Notes under the pieces: model-generated
The model's database searches: none
What the model was told of the DNA's origin: nothing
What the model saw: only the letters and a program-made list of their open reading frames with translations
Translations under genes and position numbers: made by a program
Shown here: positions 7,346 to 38,662 of the stretch, piece after piece
Layout of the letters: each line of letters begins with the position of its first letter
How positions within the stretch are numbered: the first letter of the stretch is position 1
NCBI GenBank assembly: GCA_017440045.1
Contig: JAFSIA010000032.1
Span: forward strand, 1 to 38,662
Source of the DNA: Lachnospiraceae bacterium
GTDB lineage: Bacteria > Bacillota > Clostridia > Lachnospirales > Lachnospiraceae
Reading direction: 5' to 3'
DNA: 38,662 bases

Positions 7346-8584
7346 CTATGAAAGCTTATGTATAAAGAGTCCACTTCTAAGCTTTGGCTCAAACCAAGTA
7401 GACTTTGGTGGCATAAGAAGACCTGAGTCAGCCACATCAAAAAGCTCCTGTATAGATGTAGGATACATAGAAAATGCAACTGTCATATCTTCCTTACATC
7501 TTCTCTCCAGTTCTCCTAAACCTCTGATTCCACCTATAAAATCAACTCTCTTATCAACTCTTGGGTCACCGATGCCAAGTATTGGTGAAAGAACGTGATT
7601 TTGAAGAACTGACACATCAAGACCATCTACAGGGTCATCTGACTTAATTTCATCCTTTGCACTAAGCTCATACCACTGTCCATCAAGATACATTCCTACC
7701 TTGCACTTTTCTGAAGGAGCATAAGCTGTAGCTCCAACACATTTCACATCATAAACTTTTGAAACTTTTTCGAGATATTCCTCTTTAGTATTTCCGTTCA
7801 AATCCTTTACAACCCTGTTGTAAGGCATAATCATAAGCTCCTCATCAGGGAACAAAACTGATAGGAAGAAATTGAACTCCTCTGTGCCATCAAAGCCTGG
7901 ATTTTCCTCTCTTCTCTTCATACCAACCTTAACTGCTGATGCTGCTCTATGATGACCATCAGCAATGTAAATCTGAGAAATCTTCGCAAACTCACTTTCT
8001 ATAGCAGCAATGTCCTCAGCCTGTCCGATCTTCCATACAGCGTGTCGTATGCCATCATCTGCCACGAAATCATATACAGGTGCATCAGACTTAACCTTTC
8101 CAATCACACTATTAATAACACTGTTTGCACGGTATGCAAGAAAAATAGGTCCAGTCTGAGCATTACAGTTATCAACGTGGTTGATTCTATCAACTTCCTT
8201 ATCCGCTCTGGTATTCTCATGCTTCTTTATAACACCATTAGCGTAATCATCTATAGAAGCACAAGCAACTAAACCAGTCTGCTTTCTTCCATCCATTGTA
8301 AGCTCGTATATATAATAGCAACGGTCATTATCTGTTATAAATGAGCCCTCAGCCTCCATTTTATCCAATAATTCCTTTGCTTTCTTGTAAACTCTCTCAT
8401 CATATGTATCTACTGATGAATCAAACTGAGTCTCTGCTCTGTCAATATTTAAAAATGATAATGGATTGCCCTTTACTACCTGACAAGCCTCCTCGCGATT
8501 ATATACATCATATGGTAATGCTGCAATTTTATCTGCTTTATCTGCCGCTGGACGGACACAGACAAATGGTCTAACTGTAGCCAT
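7346..8584 (-). CDS. DUF1015 family protein
   Basis: This 412-residue soluble protein has the conserved DUF1015 features: an N-terminal RPFVCVRPAADKADKIAALP segment, then PYDVYNREEA, and the central YIADGHHRAASA motif (ADGHHR). DUF1015 proteins are widespread in anaerobic bacteria and archaea and are often encoded near serine biosynthesis genes; the reaction is not established as far as I know. No serine genes occur here. The start is well supported by AAGGAGG about nine bases before the ATG. It is transcribed divergently from the small membrane protein gene and lies just upstream of the zinc transporter operon, though the 42-base gap does not prove co-transcription. Confidence 0.88.
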   Translation of the reverse strand: MATVRPFVCVRPAADKADKIAALPYDVYNREEACQVVKGNPLSFLNIDRAETQFDSSVDTYDERVYKKAKELLDKMEAEGSFITDNDRCYYIYELTMDGRKQTGLVACASIDDYANGVIKKHENTRADKEVDRINHVDNCNAQTGPIFLAYRANSVINSVIGKVKSDAPVYDFVADDGIRHAVWKIGQAEDIAAIESEFAKISQIYIADGHHRAASAVKVGMKRREENPGFDGTEEFNFFLSVLFPDEELMIMPYNRVVKDLNGNTKEEYLEKVSKVYDVKCVGATAYAPSEKCKVGMYLDGQWYELSAKDEIKSDDPVDGLDVSVLQNHVLSPILGIGDPRVDKRVDFIGGIRGLGELERRCKEDMTVAFSMYPTSIQELFDVADSGLLMPPKSTWFEPKLRSGLFIHKLS

Positions 8585-8698: not shown

Positions 8699-9019
8699 AT
8701 GGATATTGAAAATACTTATGATAAGGAGCAACCAAAAATATGGCCCATTAACACTTTGTTCATCATTACGACCATTATAACAACTATATGCTGCGTAGTA
8801 ATTTTTCCCAATTACTACTGGATTATATACCTTGTAGATATAATATGGTGTATTGTGTATACTTCTAAGGAGTGGACTATAAAAAGTGCTGCGCTTGATG
8901 AAACACGCATTAAAATTGTCAGAAGAATAGTTGTTGGCTATACTATACTGTCTGCTATTTTACCTCTAATTTATTTTCTCATTATTCTTCTCGACACTAC
9001 CATTAATCCTGTTTTCTAG
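8699..9019 (+). CDS. Small three-helix membrane protein, unrecognised
   Basis: A 106-residue protein with three strongly hydrophobic segments (about 17-37, 41-54 and 82-101). A short charged cytoplasmic-type stretch between the second and third contains KEWTIKSAALDETRIKIVRR. I do not recognise the family. The gene is credible because it has a good ribosome binding site (GGGAGGGA seven bases before the ATG), a TATAAT upstream, and stands alone on the plus strand with no competing gene opposite. After the stop there is a hairpin (9076-9096) but no clear U-tract. Nothing in the neighbourhood points to a function. Confidence 0.75.
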   Translation: MDIENTYDKEQPKIWPINTLFIITTIITTICCVVIFPNYYWIIYLVDIIWCIVYTSKEWTIKSAALDETRIKIVRRIVVGYTILSAILPLIYFLIILLDTTINPVF

Positions 9020-9096: not shown

Positions 9097-9105
9097 ATAT
9101 TACGT

Positions 9106-9205
9106 GCAATTCGCAGCCATAGGCTGCTCATCGCGGGCTAAAGCCCTTCTTTATCCGAGACGCGCAATTCGCAGCCATAGGCTGCTCATCGCGGGCTAAA
9201 GCCCT
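9106..9205. repeat. Two direct copies of a 42 bp unit made of two small hairpins
   Basis: Positions 9106-9147 and 9164-9205 are identical over 42 bases, separated by a 16-base spacer. Each unit contains GCAGCC-ATA-GGCTGC and GGGC-TAAA-GCCC, so each can fold into two short stems. This two-hairpin build resembles REP/BIME-type palindromic repeats that occur many times in a genome; a genome-wide count is needed to confirm it. Confidence 0.8.
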
Positions 9206-9207
9206 AT

Positions 9208-9271
9208 AAAAAGAAAGAAACACAATGGGTTATACAAGCAAGCTTGTAACCCATTGTGTTTCTTTCTTTTT
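9208..9271. terminator. Perfect 25 bp stem, possible bidirectional terminator after tRNA-Thr
   Basis: The arm 9208-9232 is the exact reverse complement of 9247-9271, with a 14-base loop (TACAAGCAAGCTTG) that can itself form a 4 bp stem. The arm starts with five A and the other ends with five T, so the transcript of either strand ends in a U-run. It lies about 24 bases downstream of the tRNA-Thr gene on the minus strand. A stem this long and perfect is unusual for a plain terminator and may belong to the repeat element beside it. Confidence 0.6.
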
Positions 9272-9283
9272 GCACGTCTCGGT

Positions 9284-9297
9284 GCTTTCGCGAAAGC
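9284..9297. repeat. 14 bp palindrome overlapping the tRNA-Thr 3' end
   Basis: GCTTTCGCGAAAGC is a perfect palindrome. Its last three bases are the 3' end of the tRNA acceptor stem and discriminator region, so the tRNA trailer could fold back on the acceptor strand. It may mark the processing site or be part of the adjacent repeat cluster. Confidence 0.5.
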
Positions 9298-9367
9298 TGA
9301 TAACGGGAATCGAACCCGTGACCTCCTCACTACCAATGAGGTGCGCTACCGACTGTGCCATATCAGC
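9295..9367 (-). tRNA. tRNA-Thr (anticodon GGT)
   Basis: The minus strand gives a full 73-base cloverleaf. The acceptor stem is GCTGATA paired with TATCAGC, with discriminator T. The anticodon arm is CCTCA-TTGGTAG-TGAGG with GGT at positions 34-36, which reads threonine codons ACC and ACU. The T arm is ACGGG-TTCGATT-CCCGT. The CCA tail is not encoded: the next bases are TTC. Confidence 0.96.
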
Positions 9368-9379
9368 TAACCGAGGTTT

Positions 9380-25545: not shown

Positions 25546-27384
25546 ATGATAACTAAAAGAGAAGATGTTAGAAATATTGCTATTATCGCTCACGTTGACC
25601 ATGGCAAGACAACACTTGTAGACAAGCTTTTAAAACAGAGTGGTACCTTCCGTCAGAATCAGGAAGTTGCCGAAAGAGTTATGGATTCAAACGATATTGA
25701 AAGAGAACGTGGAATCACAATCCTTTCAAAAAATACAGCTGTATATTATAAAGATACAAAGATAAATATCATCGACACACCTGGACATGCTGACTTCGGT
25801 GGCGAGGTTGAGCGTGTTCTTAAGATGGTAAATGGTGTTATACTTGTTGTAGACGCATTTGAAGGTGCTATGCCACAGACTAAATTCGTTTTGAGAAAAG
25901 CTCTTGAAATGAATCTTCCAGTTATCGTATGTATAAATAAAATTGACCGTCCTGAGGCCAGACCTACAGAGGTTATTGACGAAGTACTGGAGCTCTTCTT
26001 AGAGCTTGACGCATCAGATGAGCAGCTTGACTGTCCATTTGTATATGCATCAGCCAAGGCTGGTCACGCTGTATTAGAGCTTGATGATACACCTGAAAAT
26101 ATGATTCCACTCTTTGAGACAATCCTTAATTATATCCCTGCTCCAGAGGGAGACCCTGATGCCGGCACACAGATGCTTATCAGTACAATTGACTACAATG
26201 AATACATTGGTCGTATCGGTGTAGGTAAAATTGATAATGGTACCATTAAGGTTAATCAGGAGGTTTTACTTGTTAACCACCATGATGCTGCCAGAAGACA
26301 GCGTGTAAAAATCAGTAAGCTTTATGAATTCCAGGGATTAAACCGTGTGGAAGTACAGGAAGCCGGTATAGGTGCTATCGTGGCTATATCTGGTATAACA
26401 GACATAAAGATAGGTGACACTATTTGCTCATTGGAAAATCCTGAGGCAATACCATTCCAGAAAATTTCAGAGCCTACAATCGCTATGCAGTTTATGGTAA
26501 ATGACAGCCCGCTGGCTGGACAGGAAGGTAAGTTTGTCACATCAAGACATTTGCGTGACAGACTCTTTAGAGAATTAAATACAGATGTTTCGTTAAGAGT
26601 TGAAGAAACAGATACAACAGAAAGCTTTAAGGTTTCAGGACGTGGCGAGCTCCACTTATCAGTTCTTATCGAGAACATGAGACGTGAAGGCTATGAATTT
26701 GCCGTATCTAAGGCAGAGGTTCTCTACAAGAAAGACGAGGACGGAAAACTCTTAGAGCCAATGGAAATCGCTTATGTTGATGTACCTGAAGAATTTGCAG
26801 GAAATGTTATCGAGAAACTGTCTGGCAGAAAGGGCGAGCTTCGTGGAATGTCTACTGCTAACGGCGGATATCAAAGACTTGAGTTTGCTATACCTTCACG
26901 TGGTCTTATCGGCTACCGTGGCGAATTCATGACAGACACAAAGGGTAACGGTATCTTAAATACAGCCTTTGACGGATATGGACCATACAAGGGAGACATT
27001 CAGTACAGAAAGCAGGGCTCACTTATCGCATTCGAGTCTGGTGAAGCAATCACATACGGCCTTTACAATGCACAGGAGCGTGGAACACTGTTTATCGGTG
27101 CAGGTACAAAGGTATATTCCGGTATGATAGTTGGCCAGACAGGAAAAGCTGAAGATATCGAAGTAAACGTATGTAAGAAAAAACAGCTTACAAACACACG
27201 TGCTTCCGGCTCAGATGACGCACTTAAGCTTAGTCCACCAAGAGTTTTAAGTCTTGAACAGTGCTTGGAATTCATCGACACAAACGAGCTTTTGGAAATA
27301 ACACCATCAAGCCTCAGAATCAGAAAGAAGATACTTGATCCAACTCTCAGAAAGAGAGCTGAAAGAGCAAATAATACGCTTTAA
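25546..27384 (+). CDS. typA: Translational GTPase TypA/BipA
   Basis: A 612-residue ribosome-associated GTPase. G1 is AHVDHGKTT, G2 includes RERGITILSKNTA, G3 DTPGHADFGGEVERV, G4 NKIDRPEARP. The downstream domains include SGRGELHLSVLIENMRREGYEF and the family-specific C-terminal domain. TypA assists ribosome assembly and translation under stress. The length is standard and the frame intact. The last 34 bases of the gene and stop (27352-27385) are repeated exactly at 33054-33087, which marks this 3' end as the edge of an inserted segment. A 17 bp terminator-like hairpin follows the stop. Confidence 0.97.
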   Translation: MITKREDVRNIAIIAHVDHGKTTLVDKLLKQSGTFRQNQEVAERVMDSNDIERERGITILSKNTAVYYKDTKINIIDTPGHADFGGEVERVLKMVNGVILVVDAFEGAMPQTKFVLRKALEMNLPVIVCINKIDRPEARPTEVIDEVLELFLELDASDEQLDCPFVYASAKAGHAVLELDDTPENMIPLFETILNYIPAPEGDPDAGTQMLISTIDYNEYIGRIGVGKIDNGTIKVNQEVLLVNHHDAARRQRVKISKLYEFQGLNRVEVQEAGIGAIVAISGITDIKIGDTICSLENPEAIPFQKISEPTIAMQFMVNDSPLAGQEGKFVTSRHLRDRLFRELNTDVSLRVEETDTTESFKVSGRGELHLSVLIENMRREGYEFAVSKAEVLYKKDEDGKLLEPMEIAYVDVPEEFAGNVIEKLSGRKGELRGMSTANGGYQRLEFAIPSRGLIGYRGEFMTDTKGNGILNTAFDGYGPYKGDIQYRKQGSLIAFESGEAITYGLYNAQERGTLFIGAGTKVYSGMIVGQTGKAEDIEVNVCKKKQLTNTRASGSDDALKLSPPRVLSLEQCLEFIDTNELLEITPSSLRIRKKILDPTLRKRAERANNTL

Positions 27385-27385
27385 T
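27352..27385. repeat. Left copy of 34 bp direct repeat (bipA 3' end)
   Basis: This 34-base stretch, the last eleven codons of bipA including the stop plus one base, is identical to 33054-33087 and in the same orientation. The flanks on both sides differ at once. It is the likely attachment site copy that kept the gene whole. Confidence 0.9.
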
Positions 27386-27401
27386 GCTCTATTCCATTTA
27401 A

Positions 27402-27442
27402 AATACCACCCTAAATTGTAATACTCAATTTAGGGTGGTATT
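27402..27442. terminator. Convergent terminator between bipA and the ABC operon
   Basis: Positions 27402-27418 and 27426-27442 form a perfect 17 bp stem with a 7-base TAATACT loop. It lies 18 bases after the bipA stop and just below the stop of the minus-strand operon at 27443, so it can end both transcripts. It lies inside the repeat-flanked segment. Confidence 0.8.
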
Positions 27443-27979
27443 CTATTCTTCTTCGAAATCAAATCCCCACATTTCTTCCGCACACGCCATCATTTTCTTT
27501 ATCTCACTTGAATTTTCTTTTATATAATCACATACTATTGCATAATCATCATCTTCTGTTGAATAATTAATTATATTCAAATCTTTATCAAATATTACCT
27601 GATACGTATTATCCCCACTAAAAATCATGACGCCCATTTCATAATCTGTACCAAACTTAGGCCATATATAATAGTCAATTTTTAATTCATTTTCGTATAC
27701 TGCATTTCCCTCTTCATCCAAATAGATAATAAAATCTTCGTTTTTGGATATTCTAAGAAATCCTCCCTCGAAAGCCATAAACATTGCCGGCTTAACTTTT
27801 AGCAAATAATCTCCATGCACCGACTCATAGTATACTAATTCCCCATCTTCTTGTCTCTCAACACTATCTAGCCAATCAACGTACTTTATACCTATTCCAA
27901 AAAACCATACTGCAGCAATAACAATAAAAATCCCAAATACAGTAACTGCAAATATTATTAATTTCTTTTTAACACTCAT
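27443..27979 (-). CDS. Membrane-anchored protein of the ABC operon, unrecognised
   Basis: The 178-residue product has one N-terminal membrane helix (about 7-27) and then an acidic, aromatic-rich outside-type domain with no motif I recognise. Its last residues are very acidic (DFDFEEE). It overlaps the ATPase stop by four bases (ATGA), so it is the third member of the permease-ATPase operon. By position it could be an accessory or immunity protein for the transporter. That role is an inference from context only. The AT-rich base use matches its operon neighbours, not bipA. Confidence 0.75.
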   Translation of the reverse strand: MSVKKKLIIFAVTVFGIFIVIAAVWFFGIGIKYVDWLDSVERQEDGELVYYESVHGDYLLKVKPAMFMAFEGGFLRISKNEDFIIYLDEEGNAVYENELKIDYYIWPKFGTDYEMGVMIFSGDNTYQVIFDKDLNIINYSTEDDDYAIVCDYIKENSSEIKKMMACAEEMWGFDFEEE

Positions 27980-28584
27980 AATCTTATCACTCTCTTTTCC
28001 TTTGAAATAATCATTTCATTATGTGTAACTAAAACCACCGTTTTTCCTTGTTTATTCATTTGATGTAACAAATCCAAGACTATATCTGCATTTGCAGCAT
28101 CAAGACATGCCGTAGGTTCATCAGCCAATATTATGTCACACTTTTTATATAGTAATCTAGCTAATGCCACTCTTTGCTGCTCACCTCCAGATAATTTGTA
28201 AACCTTTTCCCTAATCTTATCTTCCAATCCAACTTGTTTCAAAACCTCTTCCACACTTCGTCCCGTTCTAGATTTTTTTTGTACAAATTCAATATTCTCT
28301 TCAACGGTTCTATTTTCTACGAGAGCGAAATTTTGAAACAAGAAACCAACTTTGTACAGATAATAGTCCTTAAGGTTCTTTTCTTTTGTAATCTCTAAAT
28401 CATCAACAACAATTTTACCTGTATCAGCCTTTTCTATACCACCGAGCATATTTAAAAATGTAGTTTTTCCACAGCCGCTTTTACCCGCAACTACAACAAA
28501 TTCTCCAGTATTAATTGTCACATTCAAATTGTCAAATATAATTTTATCTTCGAACCTTTTGTTTAAATCTACTACTTTAATCAT
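27976..28584 (-). CDS. ABC transporter ATPase, lactococcin-972 group export type
   Basis: A short 202-residue ATPase of the MacB/LolD family with Walker A GKSGCGKTT, signature LSGGEQQRVALARLL, Walker B DIILADEP and H-loop VTHNE. The string FLFQNFALVENRTVEENIEF and the compact size fit the group described as putative bacteriocin export ATPases of the lactococcin 972 type (TIGR03608). LSGGE and PTACLD (usually PTGSLD) are slightly divergent. It should power the 654-residue permease encoded directly upstream, whose stop it overlaps by four bases (ATGA). Confidence 0.9.
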   Translation of the reverse strand: MIKVVDLNKRFEDKIIFDNLNVTINTGEFVVVAGKSGCGKTTFLNMLGGIEKADTGKIVVDDLEITKEKNLKDYYLYKVGFLFQNFALVENRTVEENIEFVQKKSRTGRSVEEVLKQVGLEDKIREKVYKLSGGEQQRVALARLLYKKCDIILADEPTACLDAANADIVLDLLHQMNKQGKTVVLVTHNEMIISKEKRVIRL

Positions 28585-30545
28585 AACGCTCCGCCTTTAA
28601 GTATTTTTACTATATTTACTTTTTCAAATTTACGTATAAAAATAAATGTCATCACAAGCTCAACCATCATAAGACATACACCGGATAAGACTATTAAATA
28701 AGGTTCTTCTAATTCAAATAAAATACCCATACATAATAGCAATACTACTGCAATAATTGCTGATAATATTATATTAAGAAGTATCGCTTTATGCCTTTTC
28801 CAAACAGAATATCCCATTACCTTTTTTACAGCCAGTTCAATAGCATTAACACTATATTCCAATCGTACTATAGTAGCAATAATTCCTAATTCAATTATGA
28901 ATAATAATCCACTTATCACGCAGTTAGTAATAATTGTCTTTTCCAACAGCAGTTTATACTGCGTATATCGTTCTATAGCATTCGTACACGTCAAATATAA
29001 GCCTTTACTTTCCAAATCATATTTTTGTGACAAATAATCCATATCCTCTTTTGATATCTTATACATAAGATTTCTTTTAATATGCCCAATATTTAGCATA
29101 TCTCTTGCATCTTCACTAAAATCTTTAGTACTATATGTACAATATGAAATAATAGGATTATGGGCATAATCAGAGCTGTACATTAAATCTTCATCAAAAT
29201 AAAGAATATCAACCTCTTCCTCATAATATATTACTTCATAACTTTCTTCATAATCTATACCAAGAATATCAGCACAAAACAATGCCTCTTCTATATATTC
29301 AACATTTTCTTTACAATTATTCGGTAGAAAAATATGGACTTTATAATTCGTATTTACATTATATTTATGTAATAATTGAGAAATAGTATCAGATGCATTA
29401 CTATTTATCATTAAATACTTTCCATTATACAAACCATCATACATTGCCACAGAATACGCTATTTCATACCTATCAAAATTATCTAAATACAGAGATTTCG
29501 AATAATATTCATAATCCCTGACAACCTCGTCTTGCATATTGTAAAAATTTAATTCCACATAACTATAATCCTTATATTTTTCTACTTCTTTGTGTTGATT
29601 AATAAAATCAATTCCATTTTTTACACCTATAAAATTGGTCGCAAACGACAAAACTGCCATAATCATAATTATAACCTTAATTATATAGCATGTTCCACAT
29701 AACGATTCAGTGAAGTTGCCGTTTGATAATACCTGCTTCATGTTATACTTAAGCATACAAAGATATACCATGGAGTTAGCAACCACAACCAATATAGCCA
29801 TTATTATTACTTCTAATTTATTATAGCCTACATAAGTATATTGACCCACAATTCCATTTACTGCAACAAATATTAATAACAGACCAACTATATCCTTTAA
29901 TATGTTTTCTATTATAAGTTTCCATATTGACTGGCCCATTACAATTTTTATATAAATTTCTTTCTTTTGAAAAGCAATATCAAATATTGTTAATAGTATT
30001 ACAAAGAAACCTACAACTCCCCACGCGAATCGAACAATAACATCATGACTGTCCGATTCGCATTCATTCAACCCCGAAATATCGTATAAAACACTTAACT
30101 TATTATACAACTTATTAATATCATTTTGTGTTCCATAAAAGTAAATATTTCTTATGTAGTGATTATTTATCATTTGGTTTACATCAAAAAATTCAACTAT
30201 ACTTTCTCCAGATACAATACTTTTAAATGTGCCTGGAAATATTTCATATGCATCGTATAATTTCTGTTGCATTTCCTGTTCTGCAAATATTTTTAAATGA
30301 TACTTTTCAAAACTGTCAAACATACCTACAACAGAAAAGATTTGTACATCATTCTTTTCAGCCAATTTGCATATTTCCTTACAAAAACTTTGCCATTGAT
30401 TTTCATCCTCATAATCATATTCTATATACTGAAACTCATTTTTAAAATTTTCTAAATGTCTCTGATATGCCTCTGAATTAACTATAATTAAAGATGTAAT
30501 CAAAAAACAAAATATTAACATTTTAATTTTCTTATAATTCGACAT
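28581..30545 (-). CDS. DUF1430 / TIGR01654-type bacteriocin-associated ABC permease
   Basis: The 654-residue permease has an N-terminal helix (9-24), helices at about 171-191, 214-236, 245-265 and 287-306, a large outside region (about 310-535), then helices at 537-560, 587-609 and 615-637. The two halves share a cytoplasmic coupling motif: VMGQSIWK (202-209) and VMGYSVWK (576-583), the second inside ELAVKKVMGYS (570-580), typical of bacteriocin-associated membrane proteins of the lactococcin 972 group. The fold is FtsX/MacB-like. With the ATPase it probably exports or expels a peptide, or gives immunity. It is preceded by a 310-base gap containing LytTR-type repeats and promoter candidates. 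Confidence 0.85.
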   Translation of the reverse strand: MSNYKKIKMLIFCFLITSLIIVNSEAYQRHLENFKNEFQYIEYDYEDENQWQSFCKEICKLAEKNDVQIFSVVGMFDSFEKYHLKIFAEQEMQQKLYDAYEIFPGTFKSIVSGESIVEFFDVNQMINNHYIRNIYFYGTQNDINKLYNKLSVLYDISGLNECESDSHDVIVRFAWGVVGFFVILLTIFDIAFQKKEIYIKIVMGQSIWKLIIENILKDIVGLLLIFVAVNGIVGQYTYVGYNKLEVIIMAILVVVANSMVYLCMLKYNMKQVLSNGNFTESLCGTCYIIKVIIMIMAVLSFATNFIGVKNGIDFINQHKEVEKYKDYSYVELNFYNMQDEVVRDYEYYSKSLYLDNFDRYEIAYSVAMYDGLYNGKYLMINSNASDTISQLLHKYNVNTNYKVHIFLPNNCKENVEYIEEALFCADILGIDYEESYEVIYYEEEVDILYFDEDLMYSSDYAHNPIISYCTYSTKDFSEDARDMLNIGHIKRNLMYKISKEDMDYLSQKYDLESKGLYLTCTNAIERYTQYKLLLEKTIITNCVISGLLFIIELGIIATIVRLEYSVNAIELAVKKVMGYSVWKRHKAILLNIILSAIIAVVLLLCMGILFELEEPYLIVLSGVCLMMVELVMTFIFIRKFEKVNIVKILKGGAL

Positions 30546-30670
30546 AAATAACTCTACCTATTTTGTCCGACGATAATCTATTATAAAATAGTACTGTATT
30601 TCCCACTCATCATCAAAACATTTTCTTTCAGTAAATCTTTTTGTTTGACTATATTATACTAATGTTCCAT

Positions 30671-30699
30671 ACAATATCACCTTTTATTTTCACAATCAA
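30671..30699 (-). promoter_or_regulatory. Candidate promoter of the ABC operon
   Basis: On the minus strand TTGATT (30694-30699) and TATTGT (30671-30676) are 17 bases apart, 11 bases downstream of the nearer LytTR repeat, the geometry expected for an activated promoter. An alternative perfect TATAAT lies at 30653-30658 but has a poor -35. Either gives a leader of roughly 100 bases before the permease start. I found no peptide ORF longer than about ten codons in this gap. Confidence 0.45.
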
Positions 30700-30709
30700 T
30701 CTAATTTGC

Positions 30710-30738
30710 TCAAACGGTATTTTTTTTACTTAAACGTT
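30710..30738 (-). promoter_or_regulatory. LytTR-type direct repeat operator
   Basis: On the minus strand AACGTTTAA (30730-30738) and ACCGTTTGA (30710-30718) are 20 bases apart start to start, near two helical turns. Each matches the AgrA-type nine-base site (WMMGTTNRK) at eight of nine positions. The adjacent gene encodes a LytTR-domain regulator, so this is its likely target, controlling the permease operon. Confidence 0.6.
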
Positions 30739-30855
30739 CTTAATATTGTTTATGTTTAAATAAAATGTAATAATATTCTAATCAAAGACCTACCTTTAGC
30801 TACGAAAATCTATGCCCGCTGTTATATGTATTATGAAATATAAATACCAACAACA

Positions 30856-31554
30856 TCACCCATTTGCACATTCATACATTCTTTTTAAATATATCCTATT
30901 AAATTCTGCAAGCTTCCTTTTAGCTATATCCAAATCCTCGCCATTTTTCATATATATAATCTTGCCATCACATTTCATTATCTCATCTAAATTTACAATA
31001 AACGATTTGTGGCATCTATAAAACCATTCTTTACAAATACTACTTTCAATCTCAGATAAGGTCATATTACTCTTCTTGTTTCCAATTTTAGTATGAAATA
31101 GTGTACAATGCCTTTCCGCCTCAACATAATATATGTCTTTTAATCTTATTTTTTGTATCCCTTCCCCTACAATATTAATTTCTATTTTTTCGTTCCTACG
31201 AAATAAAACATTCGCTGCATTCACAGCTTCAATTATTTCTTCCGACATGTTTGCCTTATCCAGATATCTAAAAGCATTAACCAAGTATCCTTTACGACTC
31301 ATTTCTGTATGTGTTGTCAATATAATATATACACCCGCGTTATTTACTTCTTTTGCTCGTTCTATTACCTGAAATCCATCCATATCAGGCATTTCAATAT
31401 CAACAAAAGTAATATCATATTGCCTTTTAGCCTGCAAATATGTTTTTCCAGACTCATACATATCAATACAATTCTTATCAATATATATTTTTTCAATCTC
31501 TGCCTTTATATATTTTCTCCAATGGCTTTCATCATCTACTATTGCTATATTCAT
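30856..31554 (-). CDS. LytTR-family response regulator (AgrA-like)
   Basis: A 232-residue regulator. The receiver domain (about 1-120) has acidic D7 and D8 and phosphoacceptor D52 within FVDIEMPDMDG. The LytTR DNA-binding domain (about 131-230) includes IQKIRLKDIYYVEAERHCTL and FYRCHKSFIVNLDEI. It is the partner of the kinase encoded 12 bases upstream. LytTR regulators commonly control bacteriocins, their immunity and quorum sensing by binding pairs of nine-base repeats, and such a pair lies just downstream before the ABC operon. AGGAG precedes the start. The gene is AT-rich like the rest of the module. Confidence 0.93.
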   Translation of the reverse strand: MNIAIVDDESHWRKYIKAEIEKIYIDKNCIDMYESGKTYLQAKRQYDITFVDIEMPDMDGFQVIERAKEVNNAGVYIILTTHTEMSRKGYLVNAFRYLDKANMSEEIIEAVNAANVLFRRNEKIEINIVGEGIQKIRLKDIYYVEAERHCTLFHTKIGNKKSNMTLSEIESSICKEWFYRCHKSFIVNLDEIMKCDGKIIYMKNGEDLDIAKRKLAEFNRIYLKRMYECANG

Positions 31555-31566
31555 AAATCACCACTC

Positions 31567-32862
31567 CTATAAGTCTGTATTCTTCATCATAATAGATATA
31601 CAGAATTGTTCCTTATCTACCTCTATGTTTACAATTCCATCATTTCTTTTAACAGCATCTTTTATATTATTAATACCAAAACCATGCCTTTCCTTATCTT
31701 CTTTTATCGTATCTAATTCTTTACCTTTAAACTGACCTACATTTTTAAACTTATTTTTTTCTAAAATAATTATTTCTTCATCCGTATAACGACATTCCAA
31801 AAATATCTCTTTGTTCTCTATTTTATCTACTGCTTCCATTGCATTACTCAACACGTTAGAAAATACTGTACACAAATCATATGCGTCTATATTACAAATG
31901 GTTGGCAATTTTCCTTTTATATTTAATTTAATTCCCTTCGCCACAGCCTCAGCATAGAATTTGTTTATAATTGCATCCACTATACTATTATTTACAGTCA
32001 AGGTATTTCCGAATTCTTCTATTCTAATATTTAATAATTCTAAATATTTATCAATCTCTTCATATTGCCTCTTTTTCTGCAGATAATATAGCATCTGCAT
32101 ATGATTTCTCACATCATGTCTAAACTTTTTAGTTTCTTCTTCCCTAATTTCTAAATACTCATAATGCTTTTTTTGATCATTTAAATACTTTTTCATTAAT
32201 GAGTCATTTTCTACATACACACTATTAGCTGAGTATAATAAAAATACAGTTCCAAGCTGCAATAACATTCCTATTACAACAAATACAATTATTATTGCAA
32301 ACAATATTTTCTTTTCTTCCTTTGTTCCATTTTGATAAACAACAACAATTGCTAACACTATTATAGTGTCTATCGCCACCAATATTGTAAAAAATGCAGA
32401 GTTCTTTACATTAATCCAATTAAATCTTCTATAATATTTTCTTCTATACACACACAATAAACTATATATCAAAAACGTAGAAACCATTGATTCTATTAAG
32501 TCTTTAAATATAAATTCTGGCATTTTACATATATCCAAAACCATATCAATCATAACCATATTTATTACATCTACCATTGATGCAATAAACATAAGACCAA
32601 TTGATAACAACAGCGTTTGCCACATCTTTATAACATAAATTGTATAAAATACAACAAACATCAACCCTATATATAAGATTAATGAAAGCACATCTGCAGT
32701 TCTACAATATATAATTTGAGAAATTATTACTGATAAAAAAAATAAAATAATATATCTCTTATTATCTCTACGCTTTTCAAATTTAAATAACAATTCACAT
32801 AATAAAATTATTTTAAATATGTGTAATAAATCAGTAATAATTGCAGCAATATTTGATATCAT
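31567..32862 (-). CDS. GHKL sensor histidine kinase (AgrC/ComD-like)
   Basis: The 431-residue kinase has an N-terminal part with about six membrane helices (1-215), a dimerisation helix with the phosphoacceptor H249 in FRHDVRNH, and a GHKL ATPase domain with FSNVLSNAMEA (334-344) and HGFGINNI (393-400). This AgrC-like layout senses extracellular peptides in known relatives. No signal peptide gene (agrD or comC like) was found near it. GGAGGG precedes the ATG. It is first in the kinase-regulator pair. The 191 bases between it and the right-hand repeat contain a TATACT but no strong -35 that I can see. Confidence 0.92.
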   Translation of the reverse strand: MISNIAAIITDLLHIFKIILLCELLFKFEKRRDNKRYIILFFLSVIISQIIYCRTADVLSLILYIGLMFVVFYTIYVIKMWQTLLLSIGLMFIASMVDVINMVMIDMVLDICKMPEFIFKDLIESMVSTFLIYSLLCVYRRKYYRRFNWINVKNSAFFTILVAIDTIIVLAIVVVYQNGTKEEKKILFAIIIVFVVIGMLLQLGTVFLLYSANSVYVENDSLMKKYLNDQKKHYEYLEIREEETKKFRHDVRNHMQMLYYLQKKRQYEEIDKYLELLNIRIEEFGNTLTVNNSIVDAIINKFYAEAVAKGIKLNIKGKLPTICNIDAYDLCTVFSNVLSNAMEAVDKIENKEIFLECRYTDEEIIILEKNKFKNVGQFKGKELDTIKEDKERHGFGINNIKDAVKRNDGIVNIEVDKEQFCISIMMKNTDL

Positions 32863-33053
32863 TTTACCCTCCGTAATATGTAAAGCAAGTTAAATACATT
32901 ATTTCATTTAGTATACCATACACTGCTTTTACACGAAAGGTTAACACCAAAATATCTACCAGAAAATACGATTTGCTAACTCTAAGAATAACTTAAACAA
33001 AGCTTGTCCTTTCCGTATATACTGTTTTATTATCCGGATATGGCTATAATATT

Positions 33054-33087
33054 AAGAGAGCTGAAAGAGCAAATAATACGCTTTAAT
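33054..33087. repeat. Right copy of 34 bp direct repeat (copy of bipA 3' end)
   Basis: An exact copy of 27352-27385, same orientation. It has no coding role here. Downstream of it the sequence probably continues what once followed bipA, including a hairpin rich in GC with a U-rich flank on the plus strand. Confidence 0.9.
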
Positions 33088-33126
33088 ATATAAATATCTC
33101 AGTTTGGGGCATTCTCCCAGATTCAC

Positions 33127-33152
33127 GAAATGGCGGGTTAACCCGCCATTTC
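33127..33152. terminator. Palindromic hairpin A, probably the original bipA terminator
   Basis: A perfect 26-base palindrome built on AAATGGCGGG and its complement with GTTAAC at the centre. On the plus strand it is followed by ACTACTTTTTACACTTTTTTT, so it best suits plus-strand termination; it lies 8 bases from the stop of the convergent minus-strand gene. A close relative occurs at 36768-36794. Confidence 0.65.
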
Positions 33153-33160
33153 ACTACTTT

Positions 33161-34045
33161 TTACACTTTTTTTTCACGTACATAATTAATAATCAGAACA
33201 ACAATCACCGACACAACCACAGCCACATTAAGCAGCCCCAATATACTCTCAAAAATTATATAATCCGTACACCCTATTCTAATATCTTCCTCTGCAATAC
33301 CCATAGTCCAGCGATACACCGCACCGTATACTAAATATCCATATATTGCATACCCACATATAGAAAAAAGATATTTTCCACTTTCTATCCATTTTCTAAC
33401 AACACATACAAGCAAGATGGATGCCGGTATCACGAAGAAAAATGTAAAGTGCAGTACAATTGCAATAACTGCCAAAGCACCCAGATAAAGGTTTCCTATA
33501 ATCACTGATAGCACGGGCACTGATATTAGTATAATATGCAGATATGATCGGCTTTTTAGAACCTTTTGCTGTTCAATTGCTTTACTATGCTTAGTCGAAG
33601 TTTTTTTTAGATAACACACTATGGCCACAACCATCCATACAACATTAATCGCCATTAAGATACACGCTATAACAACAATCACTTTTGCATGGTCATCCAA
33701 CATAATACATTCTCTAAATTCAGCAGTTTTTATAACTCTCTTAGCTATCAAAATTGCTCCAATCATTATACTCATCTGCAAAATGCTGCATATTATATTT
33801 ATAATACAGGTACTAAGCTTATTAGCAACTTTTGCATTAAGAAAACTAATCAATGCTATAGTAAATGAAACTCCAAAGCATACCATTACTGGTACATAAC
33901 TCATCCTGTATATTGTATAATTCCAATCATCATAACTGCACGGCTCGTAAAACTCAAAAACATTAAACACAAGACCATATGCAATTAAATACATCAGTAC
34001 TGCTATTACACCAATAATTCTAAGCAAATTAATCTTTTTACTCAT
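33161..34045 (-). CDS. Multi-pass membrane protein, paralog of the next gene
   Basis: A 294-residue protein with seven to eight predicted membrane helices. I do not recognise a family. It is clearly related to the 300-residue protein encoded just upstream: both share IPASILLV followed by a WI..(G/K)KY.F motif, YLVYGAVYR, and a matching final helix (LLNVAVVVSV against WINVAVAAVA). The N-terminal region also aligns in spacing. AAAAGGA precedes the ATG. The gene ends 8 bases from hairpin A. The local base composition is AT-rich. Function is unknown; transport or signalling cannot be told apart from the sequence. Confidence 0.75.
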   Translation of the reverse strand: MSKKINLLRIIGVIAVLMYLIAYGLVFNVFEFYEPCSYDDWNYTIYRMSYVPVMVCFGVSFTIALISFLNAKVANKLSTCIINIICSILQMSIMIGAILIAKRVIKTAEFRECIMLDDHAKVIVVIACILMAINVVWMVVAIVCYLKKTSTKHSKAIEQQKVLKSRSYLHIILISVPVLSVIIGNLYLGALAVIAIVLHFTFFFVIPASILLVCVVRKWIESGKYLFSICGYAIYGYLVYGAVYRWTMGIAEEDIRIGCTDYIIFESILGLLNVAVVVSVIVVLIINYVREKKV

Positions 34046-34068
34046 TTCCTTTTCCTGTCTTGTAACAT

Positions 34069-34971
34069 CTACCGTGATGCTCTTTTATTCTCTATCGCCA
34101 TCATAATCAACTTAACAACTGCAACTGCTGCCACAGCAACGTTAATCCATTCTAAAACACACTCAAAGAATACGCTACCCGGCTCATATTTAGAATATAT
34201 TCCGTGTTTCATACCTGGTACAGAACGATATACTGCGCCGTACACTAAATACATATATAGCAAATATCCACCTATAGCAAATGTATATTTCTTCTGTCGA
34301 ATCCAGTCATTAACTACCTTAACCAGCAATATACTTGCAGGTATACCAAACGCAAGCAAAAACAATGGCGCAACTAATAAAACTCCCAATAAAGACCAGA
34401 AGTAAAAATAACTCGCAATAGCAGATGACATAAATACACAAAGCACTGCTCCGTGATAATAAAAGTAACTATTGCAGTACGAATTATCTCTATCAACGAT
34501 AACTTCTTTGGTTTTACTGACAATGATAATATTAGCTATCGCTATAATAGCCTGTAATATAGCAATTATTCCTACCACCACTAGCATAACTAAAATAAAA
34601 TCACAACGCCATTCCAAAGCCCCATCTTCGTAACTTATTGCACAACCTCTTACATCCCTTGTGACCATACCGGCATAATACAATACAATTATCTGTACCA
34701 GTCCACTTATAAGGTTAACGCCATTAACTTTAATTCTATTATAATTATTTAAAATTACATATCCAATCAGAGCTGCAATAAAGCTGCCACCCACGCTAGC
34801 CATTACCAGCATATAATCCCATCTGTTATCCCACCAATCACCTGGAAACTGTCCTTCAAACTGGAATGCATTAAAAGCAATTGCATAGATAAAAAGATAT
34901 GTGCATATAGATATGACAGACACTAGTTTTTGCATATTAAAATTTCCATTTTTTTGTAATAAATTAATCAT
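34069..34971 (-). CDS. Multi-pass membrane protein, tandem paralog
   Basis: A 300-residue protein with seven to eight membrane helices, 24 bases upstream of its paralog. A loop between the first helices is rich in tryptophan and aspartate (FPGDWWDNRWDYM), matching SYDDWNYTIYRM in the paralog. The shared block GIPASILLVKVVNDWIRQKK and YLVYGAVYR marks the common origin. AAGGAGGGGG lies just before the ATG, a very strong ribosome binding site. A tandem duplication followed by divergence explains the pair. No function recognised. Confidence 0.78.
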   Translation of the reverse strand: MINLLQKNGNFNMQKLVSVISICTYLFIYAIAFNAFQFEGQFPGDWWDNRWDYMLVMASVGGSFIAALIGYVILNNYNRIKVNGVNLISGLVQIIVLYYAGMVTRDVRGCAISYEDGALEWRCDFILVMLVVVGIIAILQAIIAIANIIIVSKTKEVIVDRDNSYCNSYFYYHGAVLCVFMSSAIASYFYFWSLLGVLLVAPLFLLAFGIPASILLVKVVNDWIRQKKYTFAIGGYLLYMYLVYGAVYRSVPGMKHGIYSKYEPGSVFFECVLEWINVAVAAVAVVKLIMMAIENKRASR

Positions 34972-35116
34972 AATACCCCCTCCTTGTTTCTTCCACTTAC
35001 CATAATTAGAAATTCACCATCATAATACTTAACTTCATACATTACTCACGACATACACATCATTACTTTACCATATTAAACCAATAATGAAAAGTATTTT
35101 TACACAAACGACATTT

Positions 35117-36355
35117 TTAGTTGCTTATATATTTTTTTATCTCAACATTTCCTGTACCTATCTGTGACGGGTCAAGGTAATACCATTCAAAACCGCCTCG
35201 AGATTTCAGCAATATCTGATTATGTCCTGCTTTTGGAAGCATATCTGCTGGAAGCGGTATGGTATCAAGTAATTTATAATCTTTATCATACACCTTCGTA
35301 TAATATCCATACTCATCTATAAGCTCTTTACTCTCAAAATATGGTGTTATAAATATATAGTCTCCAGTATAGGTAATAGAATTTGTTACTGATTTTTCAA
35401 CATCATCTAGCTCTATACACAGTTGCTTGTCCCCATTTGTATCTAGCAGATATACATCATTTCCCTCTTCACTATATAAAATCCCTTTATCTGTCACTGC
35501 ATAACCCACTGGTGAAATATCTTCCAATAATTCATTTATCTTACCAGTATTCATGTCTACTTCATAAAATCTTATATAATCAATATATTGGCCTCTATCA
35601 TCCGGTTCTGAAAAGTAACATAATAATACAAGCTTGTTCTGCAATATGTATGTATCAACTATCGTACCATTTAAACCATATACAGTTTCCTCGGTAAGTT
35701 CCTGTATTCTTTTTCCATTATCCAAATCATATACATCCACGTAGAAAAAAGATGTATCTTTCTCTTTTCCATCTACAATGCAGGTTACATATATCTTATC
35801 GTTGTATATCTCCCAACTCACTGCTGCTCCTATACCATTTGTATCACGATAATCTGTTGGCTCAATATTTTCTTTTCTCTGAACATACCTTTCAAAAATA
35901 TTATCAATTACAATTTCTCTGCCCGTTCCATCTACATTCATCCTATATAATCTCTGAAAACCATTATCATCTTTGCAGTCGGCATACAACTTTCCATCAT
36001 ACATCTGCATCCCCCTGGTTATATAAAACTTGGCGTCGCACTCGGTTTCATAATAGTCTTCCAAGTCATGTTGACAATTTGCTTTTGTACAAAGCATTAT
36101 ACTGTATCCGCTTTCCTTATCAAGCAAATATGTATATCGTCCATCATAGTAATAAAATGCCGCTTCACTCTCTGCACATGATTGTGTGTATACTACATAG
36201 TTACTATCAGCACTTTGGTCCAATTTATCAATAATATTTTTACCACTTTCAAAATTATCTAAAATATTATCTACATTTTCATCTCCACTGGAACACGCAC
36301 ATAAAAAACACATCAATAAACATATGATTATCATTGTATAAAAAAATCTCTTCAT
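35117..36355 (-). CDS. Secreted lipoprotein with beta-propeller-like (DUF5050-type) repeats
   Basis: The 412-residue protein has a signal peptide ending in the lipobox LCAC (C21), so it is anchored outside the membrane. Near the start of the mature part is C89-x4-C94-x1-H96-x9-C106, a motif I associate with a group of Firmicutes lipoproteins. The rest alternates short strands and acidic loops (YDGKLYADCKDDNGFQRLYR, YDLDNGKRIQEL, EVDMNTGKINEL, YLLDTNGDKQL), as in WD40-like or DUF5050 propellers. It may sense or bind an extracellular ligand and could work with the two membrane proteins encoded downstream, 145 bases away. AGAGGT precedes the ATG. Role unknown. Confidence 0.75.
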   Translation of the reverse strand: MKRFFYTMIIICLLMCFLCACSSGDENVDNILDNFESGKNIIDKLDQSADSNYVVYTQSCAESEAAFYYYDGRYTYLLDKESGYSIMLCTKANCQHDLEDYYETECDAKFYITRGMQMYDGKLYADCKDDNGFQRLYRMNVDGTGREIVIDNIFERYVQRKENIEPTDYRDTNGIGAAVSWEIYNDKIYVTCIVDGKEKDTSFFYVDVYDLDNGKRIQELTEETVYGLNGTIVDTYILQNKLVLLCYFSEPDDRGQYIDYIRFYEVDMNTGKINELLEDISPVGYAVTDKGILYSEEGNDVYLLDTNGDKQLCIELDDVEKSVTNSITYTGDYIFITPYFESKELIDEYGYYTKVYDKDYKLLDTIPLPADMLPKAGHNQILLKSRGGFEWYYLDPSQIGTGNVEIKKYISN

Positions 36356-36388
36356 ATTATTTATACCTCTATACTAAAAATATAGTAA

Positions 36389-36421
36389 TCTGCTAAGCTC
36401 TTATACAAGTTGCTTAGCAGA
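36389..36421 (-). terminator. 10 bp hairpin before the lipoprotein gene
   Basis: TCTGCTAAGC and GCTTAGCAGA pair perfectly with a 13-base loop. On the minus strand TTACTATATTTTTAG follows. It may terminate transcription from upstream (36.45 kb and above) or form part of the lipoprotein leader, since the start codon is only 34 bases further on. Confidence 0.5.
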
Positions 36422-36452
36422 CTTCTGTTTCTCCGAATACATTACTCCATAA

Positions 36453-36701
36453 CTAATACCTTAACCTTCTTCTAACATCATCTAGAGGAGATTGATTCTG
36501 TAATATGACATCTATGTGGAGTATTTTCAATTCACTATAGCTTCTTCCCACATGTACATTTTTGTAACACCCAGCATAAGCATAATCCTCCCCTGAGCTA
36601 TCCCATTTACAATCATCATTGTAGGATGATTTAAGATAAACATCTGTTGATACATATCCATAATACTTATTTGCACCTTGAGAGTCCCTTTCTATAACCA
36701 T
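36453..36701 (-). CDS. Short ORF of 82 codons, doubtful or remnant
   Basis: The reading frame gives a polar, tyrosine-rich protein (SSYNDDCKWDSSGEDYAYAG, then CYKNVHVGRSYSELKILHI). I do not recognise it. There is no ribosome binding site before the ATG, and the frame is closed by a stop about 25 bases upstream. No signal peptide is present in any frame just upstream. It may be the end of a decayed secreted-protein gene; the style faintly recalls lactococcin-972-type peptides but lacks their C-terminal features. Apart from it the stretch 36356-36817 holds only two hairpins. Confidence 0.3.
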   Translation of the reverse strand: MVIERDSQGANKYYGYVSTDVYLKSSYNDDCKWDSSGEDYAYAGCYKNVHVGRSYSELKILHIDVILQNQSPLDDVRRRLRY

Positions 36702-36767
36702 ATTTACGGAAAAATATACTTTTTATTGTTACCTTTCGTTGCTTTTTGTTGTAAATCTAGGTTCACG

Positions 36768-36794
36768 AAATGGCGGGAAGTTACCCCGCCATTT
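36768..36794. terminator. Hairpin B, related to hairpin A
   Basis: AAATGGCGGG pairs with CCCGCCATTT across a 7-base loop. It lies 24 bases after the stop of the DUF4143 gene and shares the sequence TTCACGAAATGGCGGG and a downstream ACACTTTTTT with hairpin A at 33127-33152. It may terminate transcription after the ATPase gene. Confidence 0.65.
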
Positions 36795-36817
36795 TTATTG
36801 TTCTAACACTTTTTTAA

Positions 36818-38110
36818 TTATAATAATTCTCTCATCCTTGTAGCAAGATAAAGGGGCATATTTGTAATATAACCGTCCTTACGATAACCACGTTTAGAAA
36901 AACGTACAGCATATTTAGGTTGATATTCAGACACATTCTTCTTGAAAGTTGGTGCTGACTTATCTTCGCCACTTTTGGCCTCCACAGGAATAATTGATGT
37001 ACCATATTGAATAACAAAATCAATCTCCCCACTACGTTCAGAATAATAATGTGGCGCAACATCAAACTGCGCGCATAGTTGTTGTAATACGTAATTTTCT
37101 GTCAATGGGCCCTTGAACTGATAATCTGATTTTAGCAGAATAGCACTATTATCAATACCCGCCATATACTTAAGAAGTCCTGTATCAAATACAAACAATT
37201 TAAATTGGTCTAATTTCTCAAAAGCAGAAAGTGGGTGCTCTAACTTTGATACATTATAAACACGATTCAACATACCGGCAGATACAAGCCATTCAATCGC
37301 CTCTTCAAAATCACGTGCTCTACCTCCTTCACGCACTGCTCCATACATAAACTTCTCATTGGACTTTGCAAGTTGTGTCACAATGCTTCGAAAAACCATC
37401 AGTATTCTTCCACTGTTCACTTTACCATTATGCTTAGAAAAATCATTTTCATATATCTGAACAAGTTCCTTTTGTATCTGCGCAATTCTTGCTGGGTCCT
37501 TATACTTTACCCACGAAGCAACACATTCAGGCATGCCACCGATAATAAGGTAGTTGTTATATGCCTCCATCAAGCGATTATGAAACAGCTCTTCTATTTC
37601 TTGCTCCTTTGTAATGCTCTGATAGTAAGCAAACAGTGACTCATCTGTCGCATTAAGAAACTCATCAAAAGTCAATGGTGAAATATCCAAAAGATTTACC
37701 ATACCGACTGGATAAGATTTAGGTTGAGCCAATAAAGTACCAAGCAAACTGCCTGCTGCGATTACATGGTATTCGTTTGCTTTTTCTTTAAAATATTTCA
37801 GTGCATTCAGCGCAGATGGACACTCCTGAATCTCATCAAAAATAATAAGCGTTTTTTCTGGTTGAATCTTCTCACCAGCAACCAATGATAATAATTCTAC
37901 AATGCGTTGAGGATTCTTATTAGCTTCAAAAATAGACCTCAATTCGTCCTCCTCGTCAAAATTAAAATATACAAAACTATCATAATATATTTTACCAAAT
38001 TTTTTCATTAACCAAGTCTTGCCAACCTGACGAGCTCCTTTAAGAACCATGGGCTTACGCTCCTCATCATTTTTCCACTTGATAAGTGCATCTATCGCAT
38101 TACGTTTCAT
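36818..38110 (-). CDS. AAA_14/DUF4143 family ATPase
   Basis: A 430-residue ATPase. Walker A is GARQVGKT (25-32), Walker B LIIFDEIQE (D92, E93), with IAAGSLLG after it. The C-terminal DUF4143 part carries a PD-(D/E)XK-like core: SGEIDFVI (E362, D364) and PVEAKSG (E377, K379). These single-gene ATPases are common and variable in gut anaerobes and often move between genomes; their function is not settled, though defence or toxin-antitoxin links have been suggested. AGAGGTG precedes the ATG. It stands alone between hairpin B and a region of phased T-tracts. Codon use is a little less AT-rich than the membrane protein block. Confidence 0.9.
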   Translation of the reverse strand: MKRNAIDALIKWKNDEERKPMVLKGARQVGKTWLMKKFGKIYYDSFVYFNFDEEDELRSIFEANKNPQRIVELLSLVAGEKIQPEKTLIIFDEIQECPSALNALKYFKEKANEYHVIAAGSLLGTLLAQPKSYPVGMVNLLDISPLTFDEFLNATDESLFAYYQSITKEQEIEELFHNRLMEAYNNYLIIGGMPECVASWVKYKDPARIAQIQKELVQIYENDFSKHNGKVNSGRILMVFRSIVTQLAKSNEKFMYGAVREGGRARDFEEAIEWLVSAGMLNRVYNVSKLEHPLSAFEKLDQFKLFVFDTGLLKYMAGIDNSAILLKSDYQFKGPLTENYVLQQLCAQFDVAPHYYSERSGEIDFVIQYGTSIIPVEAKSGEDKSAPTFKKNVSEYQPKYAVRFSKRGYRKDGYITNMPLYLATRMRELL

Positions 38111-38166
38111 TACACAACACCTCTCTTACACTGTTTCAGAGAAAGCTTATCACATTTTCGCATTTT

Positions 38167-38258
38167 TATCAAGGCAACTTTTTCACGTTTTTACAGCTTT
38201 TTTTGAATGTTTTTACACATTTTTACAACTTTTTCACACTAATTTTTACACATTTTTT
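38167..38258 (-). promoter_or_regulatory. Candidate -35 with helically phased A-tracts upstream of the DUF4143 gene
   Basis: Eight runs of five to seven T (plus strand) begin at 38179, 38188, 38198, 38210, 38220, 38230, 38243 and 38253, a mean step of 10.6 bases. Seen from the minus strand they lie directly upstream of TTGATA (38167-38172), a possible -35. Tracts repeated once per helical turn bend DNA and can act like an UP element. The segment 38112-38275 has no coding potential. Confidence 0.55.
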
Positions 38259-38275
38259 CACTTTCATTCATTTTC

Positions 38276-38494
38276 CTATCTCGTATTGTCGTAGATTTTA
38301 AAGCCTAATATACTTATTTGCACGCCCTTCACATCACTATAAATACTCTCACCATCATAATAATCGACACGGTAAAATGGTGAATAATATGTATCATATG
38401 AGCTGGCTCCACCTTGCCTTGGATATAGTAATATACAAAGCAAAATAATGATTGCACCTAATATAAGATTCTTGACACTCACCTGTTTATCCAT
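38276..38494 (-). CDS. Small single-helix membrane protein, unrecognised
   Basis: A 72-residue protein with one N-terminal membrane helix (about 9-25, LILGAIIILLCILL) and a short tyrosine-rich outer part ending VQISILGFKIYDNT. I do not recognise the family. A strong ribosome binding site (AAGGAGG six bases before the ATG) supports it as a real gene. It is followed by the phased T-tract region. It starts 34 bases after the stop of the partial gene at the window edge, so both may be one unit. Confidence 0.7.
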   Translation of the reverse strand: MDKQVSVKNLILGAIIILLCILLYPRQGGASSYDTYYSPFYRVDYYDGESIYSDVKGVQISILGFKIYDNTR

Positions 38495-38528
38495 ATGTAA
38501 CCTCCTTGCAAAATAGATTTTCTTAACA

Positions 38529-38662
38529 TCACCAAATTATATATTTATAACCTTTAACATTATCTATAAAATACTCAATAAACTCCTCAATCTCGTCATA
38601 ATCAGACTCAAACACCCCCCAAGGATTACAGTAACCATTTTTTTTAACATATATATTTCCCG
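38529..38662 (-). CDS. C-terminal end of an unrecognised protein (cut by window edge)
   Basis: The last 43 codons of a minus-strand frame run off the window. The peptide reads YVKKNGYCNPWGVFESDYDE then IEEFIEYFIDNVKGYKYIIW before TGA. It is acidic and aromatic with an alpha-helical look. No family is recognisable from this piece. The frame is open all the way to the edge, and the next gene starts soon after its stop with a good ribosome binding site, which supports it as coding. Confidence 0.5.
   Translation of the reverse strand, partial: GNIYVKKNGYCNPWGVFESDYDEIEEFIEYFIDNVKGYKYIIW

Follow-up and report, generated by a model that had tools for sequence, protein, structure and literature searches.

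The DNA analysed here (the window) is a 38,662 nt stretch, contig JAFSIA010000032.1 of assembly GCA_017440045.1, from an uncultured, gut-type Lachnospiraceae bacterium (genome G000; 1.91 Mb in 68 contigs, 74% complete, and apparently metagenome-assembled). It carries the gene bipA (typA), whose 3′ end is present again downstream as an exact 34 bp direct repeat, and between the two copies is a module of five genes, all on the minus strand, coding for a GHKL kinase, a LytTR regulator, a DUF1430 permease, an ABC ATPase and a small protein. The features of this region are as follows.

25546–27384, plus strand: bipA/typA (TIGR01394, 928 bits, cut-off 757.3), ending in the left repeat copy
27352–27385, plus strand: left 34 bp copy, exact repeat, holding the bipA stop codon
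27443–27979, minus strand: small protein (178 aa), no family; by eye its N-terminal part includes a hydrophobic segment
27976–28584, minus strand: ABC ATPase, lactococcin-972-type (PF00005; TIGR03608, 231.3 bits, cut-off 254.85)
28581–30545, minus strand: permease of the DUF1430/bacteriocin-associated integral membrane type, mdcH-like (PF07242, TIGR01654)
30546–30855, no strand: 310 bp gap 5′ of the permease gene, no mediterrocin-like gene detected
30856–31554, minus strand: LytTR response regulator (PF00072, PF04397)
31567–32862, minus strand: GHKL histidine kinase with a hydrophobic N-terminal half (by eye; PF14501)
33054–33087, plus strand: right 34 bp copy, exact repeat, a bipA 3′-end fragment

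The two copies are identical and on the same strand, and the sequences flanking them are unlike, with 15–20% identity over 10, 20 and 40 nt on both sides, which is about that expected by chance. In 30 first-order Markov windows of the same dinucleotide make-up the longest exact direct repeats are 14–17 nt, and there is no third copy with three or fewer mismatches in the assembled genome. The bipA gene is intact with its stop codon (27382–27384) inside the left copy, and the right copy is outside all open reading frames (ORFs) of at least 60 aa, falling within two ORFs of 24 and 29 aa only. The right copy is a fragment of the bipA 3′ end. Over its first 16 nt the repeat agrees, with one mismatch, with the bipA gene of the sister species G004 (the nearest relative among seven congeners compared), and a blastn alignment of the ends of the two bipA genes breaks off at 27367. 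The insert between the copies is 28.3% GC, compared with 37.9% for the remainder of the window, and there are no integrase, transposase, relaxase or transfer families among the listed matches (the best 25 per protein) of the five module proteins. The initial annotation had described all of these features, namely the repeat with its unlike flanks, a left copy completing bipA and a non-coding right copy, an AT-rich module and the lack of an integrase inside it, and each of them stands. We conclude that the repeat is very likely the scar of an insertion.

A search for exact repeats 1–15 kb apart in 1.37 of the 1.91 Mb of G000 revealed a second structure of this plan. In locus L187 (contig C19, 11049–14884) a 32 bp repeat at positions 11049 and 14853 encloses a 3.8 kb insert and includes the stop codon of a gene coding for a CYTH-domain protein. 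The insert is 31.8% GC. Its three larger genes are all on the opposite strand; one of them is trigger-factor-like (83 bits, under its cut-off) and two have no family. No integrase was recognised in the insert. In six of the seven congeners the CYTH gene and an HD-domain gene are adjacent (33–123 bp apart), such that the site is empty, and insertion is the parsimonious reading. When three congeners are aligned, the sequence from the right copy onwards scores 68, 68 and 44, compared with 30, 22 and 21 for the left copy and its inner flank, the higher scores stemming mainly from the end of the HD gene. The remaining congener, G006, carries a different 3.8 kb insert of ABC/FtsX type at this position, and the CYTH-HD junction looks like an insertion hot spot. 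The CYTH insert, being of the same plan and at a site that is empty in most congeners, supports the interpretation that the module was inserted at bipA.

The bipA side of the comparison is more complex. In six of the seven congeners bipA and yigZ (TIGR00257) are convergent neighbours, approximately 32–278 bp apart, and in G004 they are separated by 9.1 kb. The window contig, at its end, shares an overlap of 113 identical bases with contig C44, which leads on to yigZ, so that in G000 the distance, across two overlapping contigs, is about 18.5 kb. All that the G000 and G004 islands share is a regulator gene and a kinase gene adjoining yigZ (44–46% aa identity), with a short ORF between these two genes (49%). 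As the accessory DNA at this junction differs between the two genomes, it looks like an insertion hot spot too. The sequence beyond the right copy is itself accessory; from 33088 onwards it has no match in the bipA loci examined except for one weak protein match (30% aa identity) in L094, about 11 kb from bipA. It was expected from the initial annotation that the DNA at 33088 would be the ancestral neighbour of bipA, and this is doubtful given the bipA-yigZ order of the congeners. A companion proposal, that a hairpin just past the right copy (hairpin A, 33127–33152) was the original bipA terminator, is not supported. A near-copy of the hairpin is present 3.6 kb further on, and its similarity to the bipA terminator of the sister species is reached by 59 of 300 shuffles and is not significant.

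A possible explanation of this arrangement is that the right copy is an older junction between bipA and the island, and that the module is one segment of an island that was reshuffled internally. The whole bipA-yigZ interval is accessory and is different in the nearest relative, the hairpin is also repeated within the island, and the island is AT-rich throughout. We nonetheless regard this as unlikely, because the same scar occurs at the simple CYTH junction that is empty in most relatives. That the repeat is an artefact of a metagenome-assembled genome is very improbable, even though the assembly is fragmented. It is hard to see a misjoin producing another exact copy whose flanks differ on either side; judging by the 113-base overlap of the contigs, the graph word length was apparently much greater than 34; and the same plan is found on another contig.

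We surveyed bipA loci in one genome per species, with 80 loci in total, of which 64 have at least 5.7 kb of downstream sequence and 16 have less. Exact matches to a locus's own bipA tail further downstream never exceed 13 nt in the 80 loci, excepting two local tandem repeats (L065 and L079). Integrases were sought in 87 locus records (L011–L097) by tblastn with four tyrosine recombinases of G000 as the only queries. The initial annotation had suggested looking for integrase-bearing elements next to bipA in other genomes. Integrases were found in two records (L020 and L033), on the downstream side of bipA but 7.7–7.8 kb away from it and in different contexts. We rejected L020 as a bipA element since the genes adjoining bipA there are common to other genomes, and discounted an 11 nt match to the bipA tail just behind its integrase gene, as matches of this length occur in many loci. 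L033 was also rejected; bipA is followed by ordinary genes, yigZ and a penicillin-binding protein gene, and the integrase is near a tRNA-Thr gene. Integration at typA/bipA is not described in the literature matches listed.

Site-specific recombinases are a usual agent of insertion at the 3′ ends of genes. We tentatively favour, at a little below an even chance, the reading that the module is a cargo cassette, acquired horizontally and without an integrase of its own, that was inserted at the 3′ end of bipA by site-specific recombination. The incoming DNA would most likely have been a circle itself carrying the last 34 bp of bipA, and one crossover between circle and chromosome would have restored an entire bipA at the left border and placed a spare gene end on the right. 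The favoured catalyst would be a site-specific recombinase that acted in trans or has since been lost, as in the streptococcal cis-mobilizable elements (CIMEs). The initial annotation had called the repeat a classic trace of site-specific integration. The derivation of the repeat from bipA and the second structure at CYTH agree with an insertion; no comparable repeat or integrase element was found at the surveyed bipA loci.

Several observations weigh against this reading. Insertion at bipA is inferred, as an empty site could not be seen in any conspecific genome, and no integrase-bearing relative was found at bipA among the surveyed loci by the four-query tblastn search. Approximately half of the 34 bp repeat is not conserved in G004, so a matching attP would have to come from close kin. 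The accessory DNA at bipA in G004 has no repeat of the module's kind, an exact flanking repeat longer than 22 nt is found in none of 15 homologous modules (some of these stretches being short), and the borders of the G006 insert have no repeat of 14 nt or more. Low GC is not peculiar to the module either, as the remainder of the bipA-yigZ island is 32.4% GC and the G004 island 33.1%. The bipA and CYTH repeats look unrelated, and one integrase therefore cannot explain both in the ordinary way. Locus L143 (contig C3) counts partly in favour. There the lepA (TIGR01393) 3′ region is matched by an 83 nt, 98% identical copy 7.5 kb away (1222–1304 and 8747–8829), with a gene for a 307 aa tyrosine recombinase in between; the duplication does not reach the stop codon, falling 67 bp short of it, and so departs from the textbook form. 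L143 also has a 39 nt repeat (92%) at 1450 and 10324. Further searches for recombination signals were negative: the repeat does not occur a third time towards the island's far end in C44, nor in the G004 island, the module has no terminal inverted repeats (the best score is reached by 496 of 500 shuffles), and viral contigs contain no 22 nt matches to the repeat. Core-type inverted repeats within the 34-mer are weak and were not used.

The insertion could also have been accomplished by RecA, with circularised DNA from close kin carrying part of the bipA end and entering through a single homologous crossover or through homology-facilitated illegitimate recombination; a single crossover of this type would leave an identical scar. 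No integrase would ever have been involved, and the bipA-yigZ and CYTH-HD hot spots would be fed by recombination at the flanking core genes. This would account for the identity across the non-conserved half of the repeat, as well as for the unrelated repeats, their varied lengths (34, 32 and 83 nt) and the missing integrases. There are precedents in two papers: gene-end duplications of 109–950 bp in E. coli are ascribed to the entry, by single crossover, of circles in which part of the homologous fragment was missing (PMC3240628), and 45% of hot spots are reported to contain an integrase, with recombination at flanking core genes proposed for hot spots (PMC5635113). The E. coli duplications are, however, longer than the 34 and 32 bp repeats, which closely resemble each other in length and both end within five bases of a stop codon. 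We consider the RecA route a serious contender but a doubtful one, and prefer site-specific recombination.

We made a census of exact pairs of at least 24 nt with unlike flanks, 1–15 kb apart, in 1.37 Mb of G000 and in 128 stretches (2.22 Mb) from elsewhere. The latter are mostly bipA and module loci with samples of G004 and G005, and do not constitute a fair control for rate. There are four pairs in G000 (at bipA, at CYTH, an intergenic pair on C3 and one at the ends of two paralogues) and two in other genomes (L140 and L263). Two of the four G000 pairs are gene-end/intergenic pairs and none spans a start codon; at a threshold of at least 16 nt, start-codon pairs appear too, one in G000 and two elsewhere. 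The filter drops lepA, part of L140, L136, L198 and pairs in paralogous genes. In L140 (G110:C21) the 3′ end of an ABC gene is duplicated with a deletion (5642–5921 and 7972–8101) around a homologue of a DUF4143-type ATPase. Terminator-like repeats of 16 and 22 nt also occur in L140, around a neighbouring permease/ABC/kinase/regulator module. L263 (G004:C13) has a 35 nt palindromic hairpin at the end of a CYTH gene, at 9931 and 13550 (3.6 kb apart); it recurs past neighbouring genes and was rejected as an insertion. The bipA repeat is one of two clear scar cases in the searched part of the genome.

The likeness of these two cases raises the prospect of a single new insertion process that duplicates about 33 bp of the target at gene ends. 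Recombinase-less cassettes would enter convergent gene junctions in this lineage by one undescribed process, copying approximately 32–34 bp of the upstream gene end, including the stop codon, to the far border; if true, this would be a mobile cargo system supplying hot spots without recognisable mobile elements. The two targets are unlike, and the 34 and 32 bp repeats both span a stop codon shortly before a hairpin. Nevertheless, there are two clean cases only and no enzyme, no common end sequence is seen in the two inserts (the longest exact stretch they share is 15 nt and is away from the ends), and known transposases duplicate less of their targets than about 33 bp. We give such a process little credence.

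Integrase-less cargo at gene ends is a known kind of element, and the module has similarities to three described systems. Like the streptococcal CIMEs it is cargo at a gene 3′ end, flanked by repeats and lacking integrase and transfer genes; classical CIMEs of S. salivarius are 1.2–13 kb, and decayed integrase-less elements are common in that species (PMC7563491, and for the CIMEs also PMC5704250). The exact 34 bp repeats would correspond to putative attL and attR, but in contrast to CIMEs no integrative and conjugative or integrative and mobilizable element with the same site was found in the 80 bipA loci, nor a tandem partner, and the repeats at the two genes look unrelated. Secondly, related species carry differing accessory DNA at one junction and the module has no mobility genes, as in the integrase-poor core-gene hot spots of PMC5635113, although here short gene-end repeats mark two of the inserts. 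The same paper comments that it 'would be very surprising' if radically novel elements lacking an integrase were numerous. How accessory genes enter integrase-less hot spots is an open question on which our finding bears, and short gene-end repeats around inserts provide a scar that can be searched for.

The third similarity is in the cargo. The permease passes the PF07242 cut-off (30.5 bits, cut-off 28.2) and is far below that of TIGR01654 (36.5 bits, cut-off 189.35); TIGR03608 is the best NCBIfam match of the ABC ATPase, though under its cut-off. Permease and ATPase appear to be the counterparts of mdcH and mdcI in the mediterrocin (mdc) cluster. As in the mediterrocin and lactococcin 972 clusters described in PMC12345188, there are genes of the DUF1430 seven-helix type and ABC genes, low GC, and a sporadic distribution in Lachnospiraceae; unlike those clusters, the module has no detected bacteriocin gene and does have a GHKL/LytTR two-component system. 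Of 299 genomes sampled from the family, 19 have permease homologues, and in a wider sample matches with E up to 1e-30 occur in 2 of 392 (G000 included in both counts). The permease of the module is 19–34% identical to the homologues found. Homologues of the small protein (34–39% aa identity, tblastn) adjoin the two closest permease homologues. A mediterrocin-like gene is located upstream of the permease gene, next to the permease/ATPase pair, in eight of the 15 homologous loci examined, three of the eight being profile-confirmed. No bacteriocin precursor ORF is found at 30546–30855, and tblastn with five precursor ORFs gave no match in the window. Since none was found here, the cargo appears to provide sensing and immunity but no weapon, and judged by its sequence the module resembles the immunity/export half of lactococcin-972/mediterrocin systems, lacking the bacteriocin gene. 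The kinase and regulator probably sense a bacteriocin of this type and induce the DUF1430/ABC exporter as immunity. If the cargo is indeed a sensor-controlled immunity pump without a bacteriocin, it would be a resistance trait spreading without its weapon. Distant permease homologues (20–24% identical) are found in 2 of 72,556 plasmid and 1 of 50,697 phage records; the permease pattern has no match in viral contigs, and there are no relatives by sequence among solved structures.

Other features of the window beyond and inside the repeat are these.

27399–27445, no strand: hairpin directly inward of the left copy, where bipA and the module operon end convergently (from sequence)
33127–33152, no strand: hairpin A past the right copy, near-copy at about 36759–36828
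33161–38662, minus strand: other accessory genes of the bipA-yigZ island, including two paralogous membrane proteins, a lipoprotein (by eye) and a DUF4143 ATPase

The two near-copies of the hairpin (33119–33187 and 36759–36828; AAATGGCGGG...CCCGCCATTT) are beside the ends of two minus-strand genes. Elsewhere in G000, L145 (C2, 6924–7661) has an ORF of 245 aa coding for a XerC-like recombinase, with a profile match covering positions 3–132 of 172, and L212 (C24, 9612–14963) contains a run of four genes of 404–435 aa that have exact stretches in common and are apparently paralogues. At the left of the window, segments 9102–9205 and 9208–9271 contain two 46 nt copies (98%) spaced by 58 bp and a perfect 25 bp inverted repeat, adjoining a tRNA-Thr gene (9294–9368).

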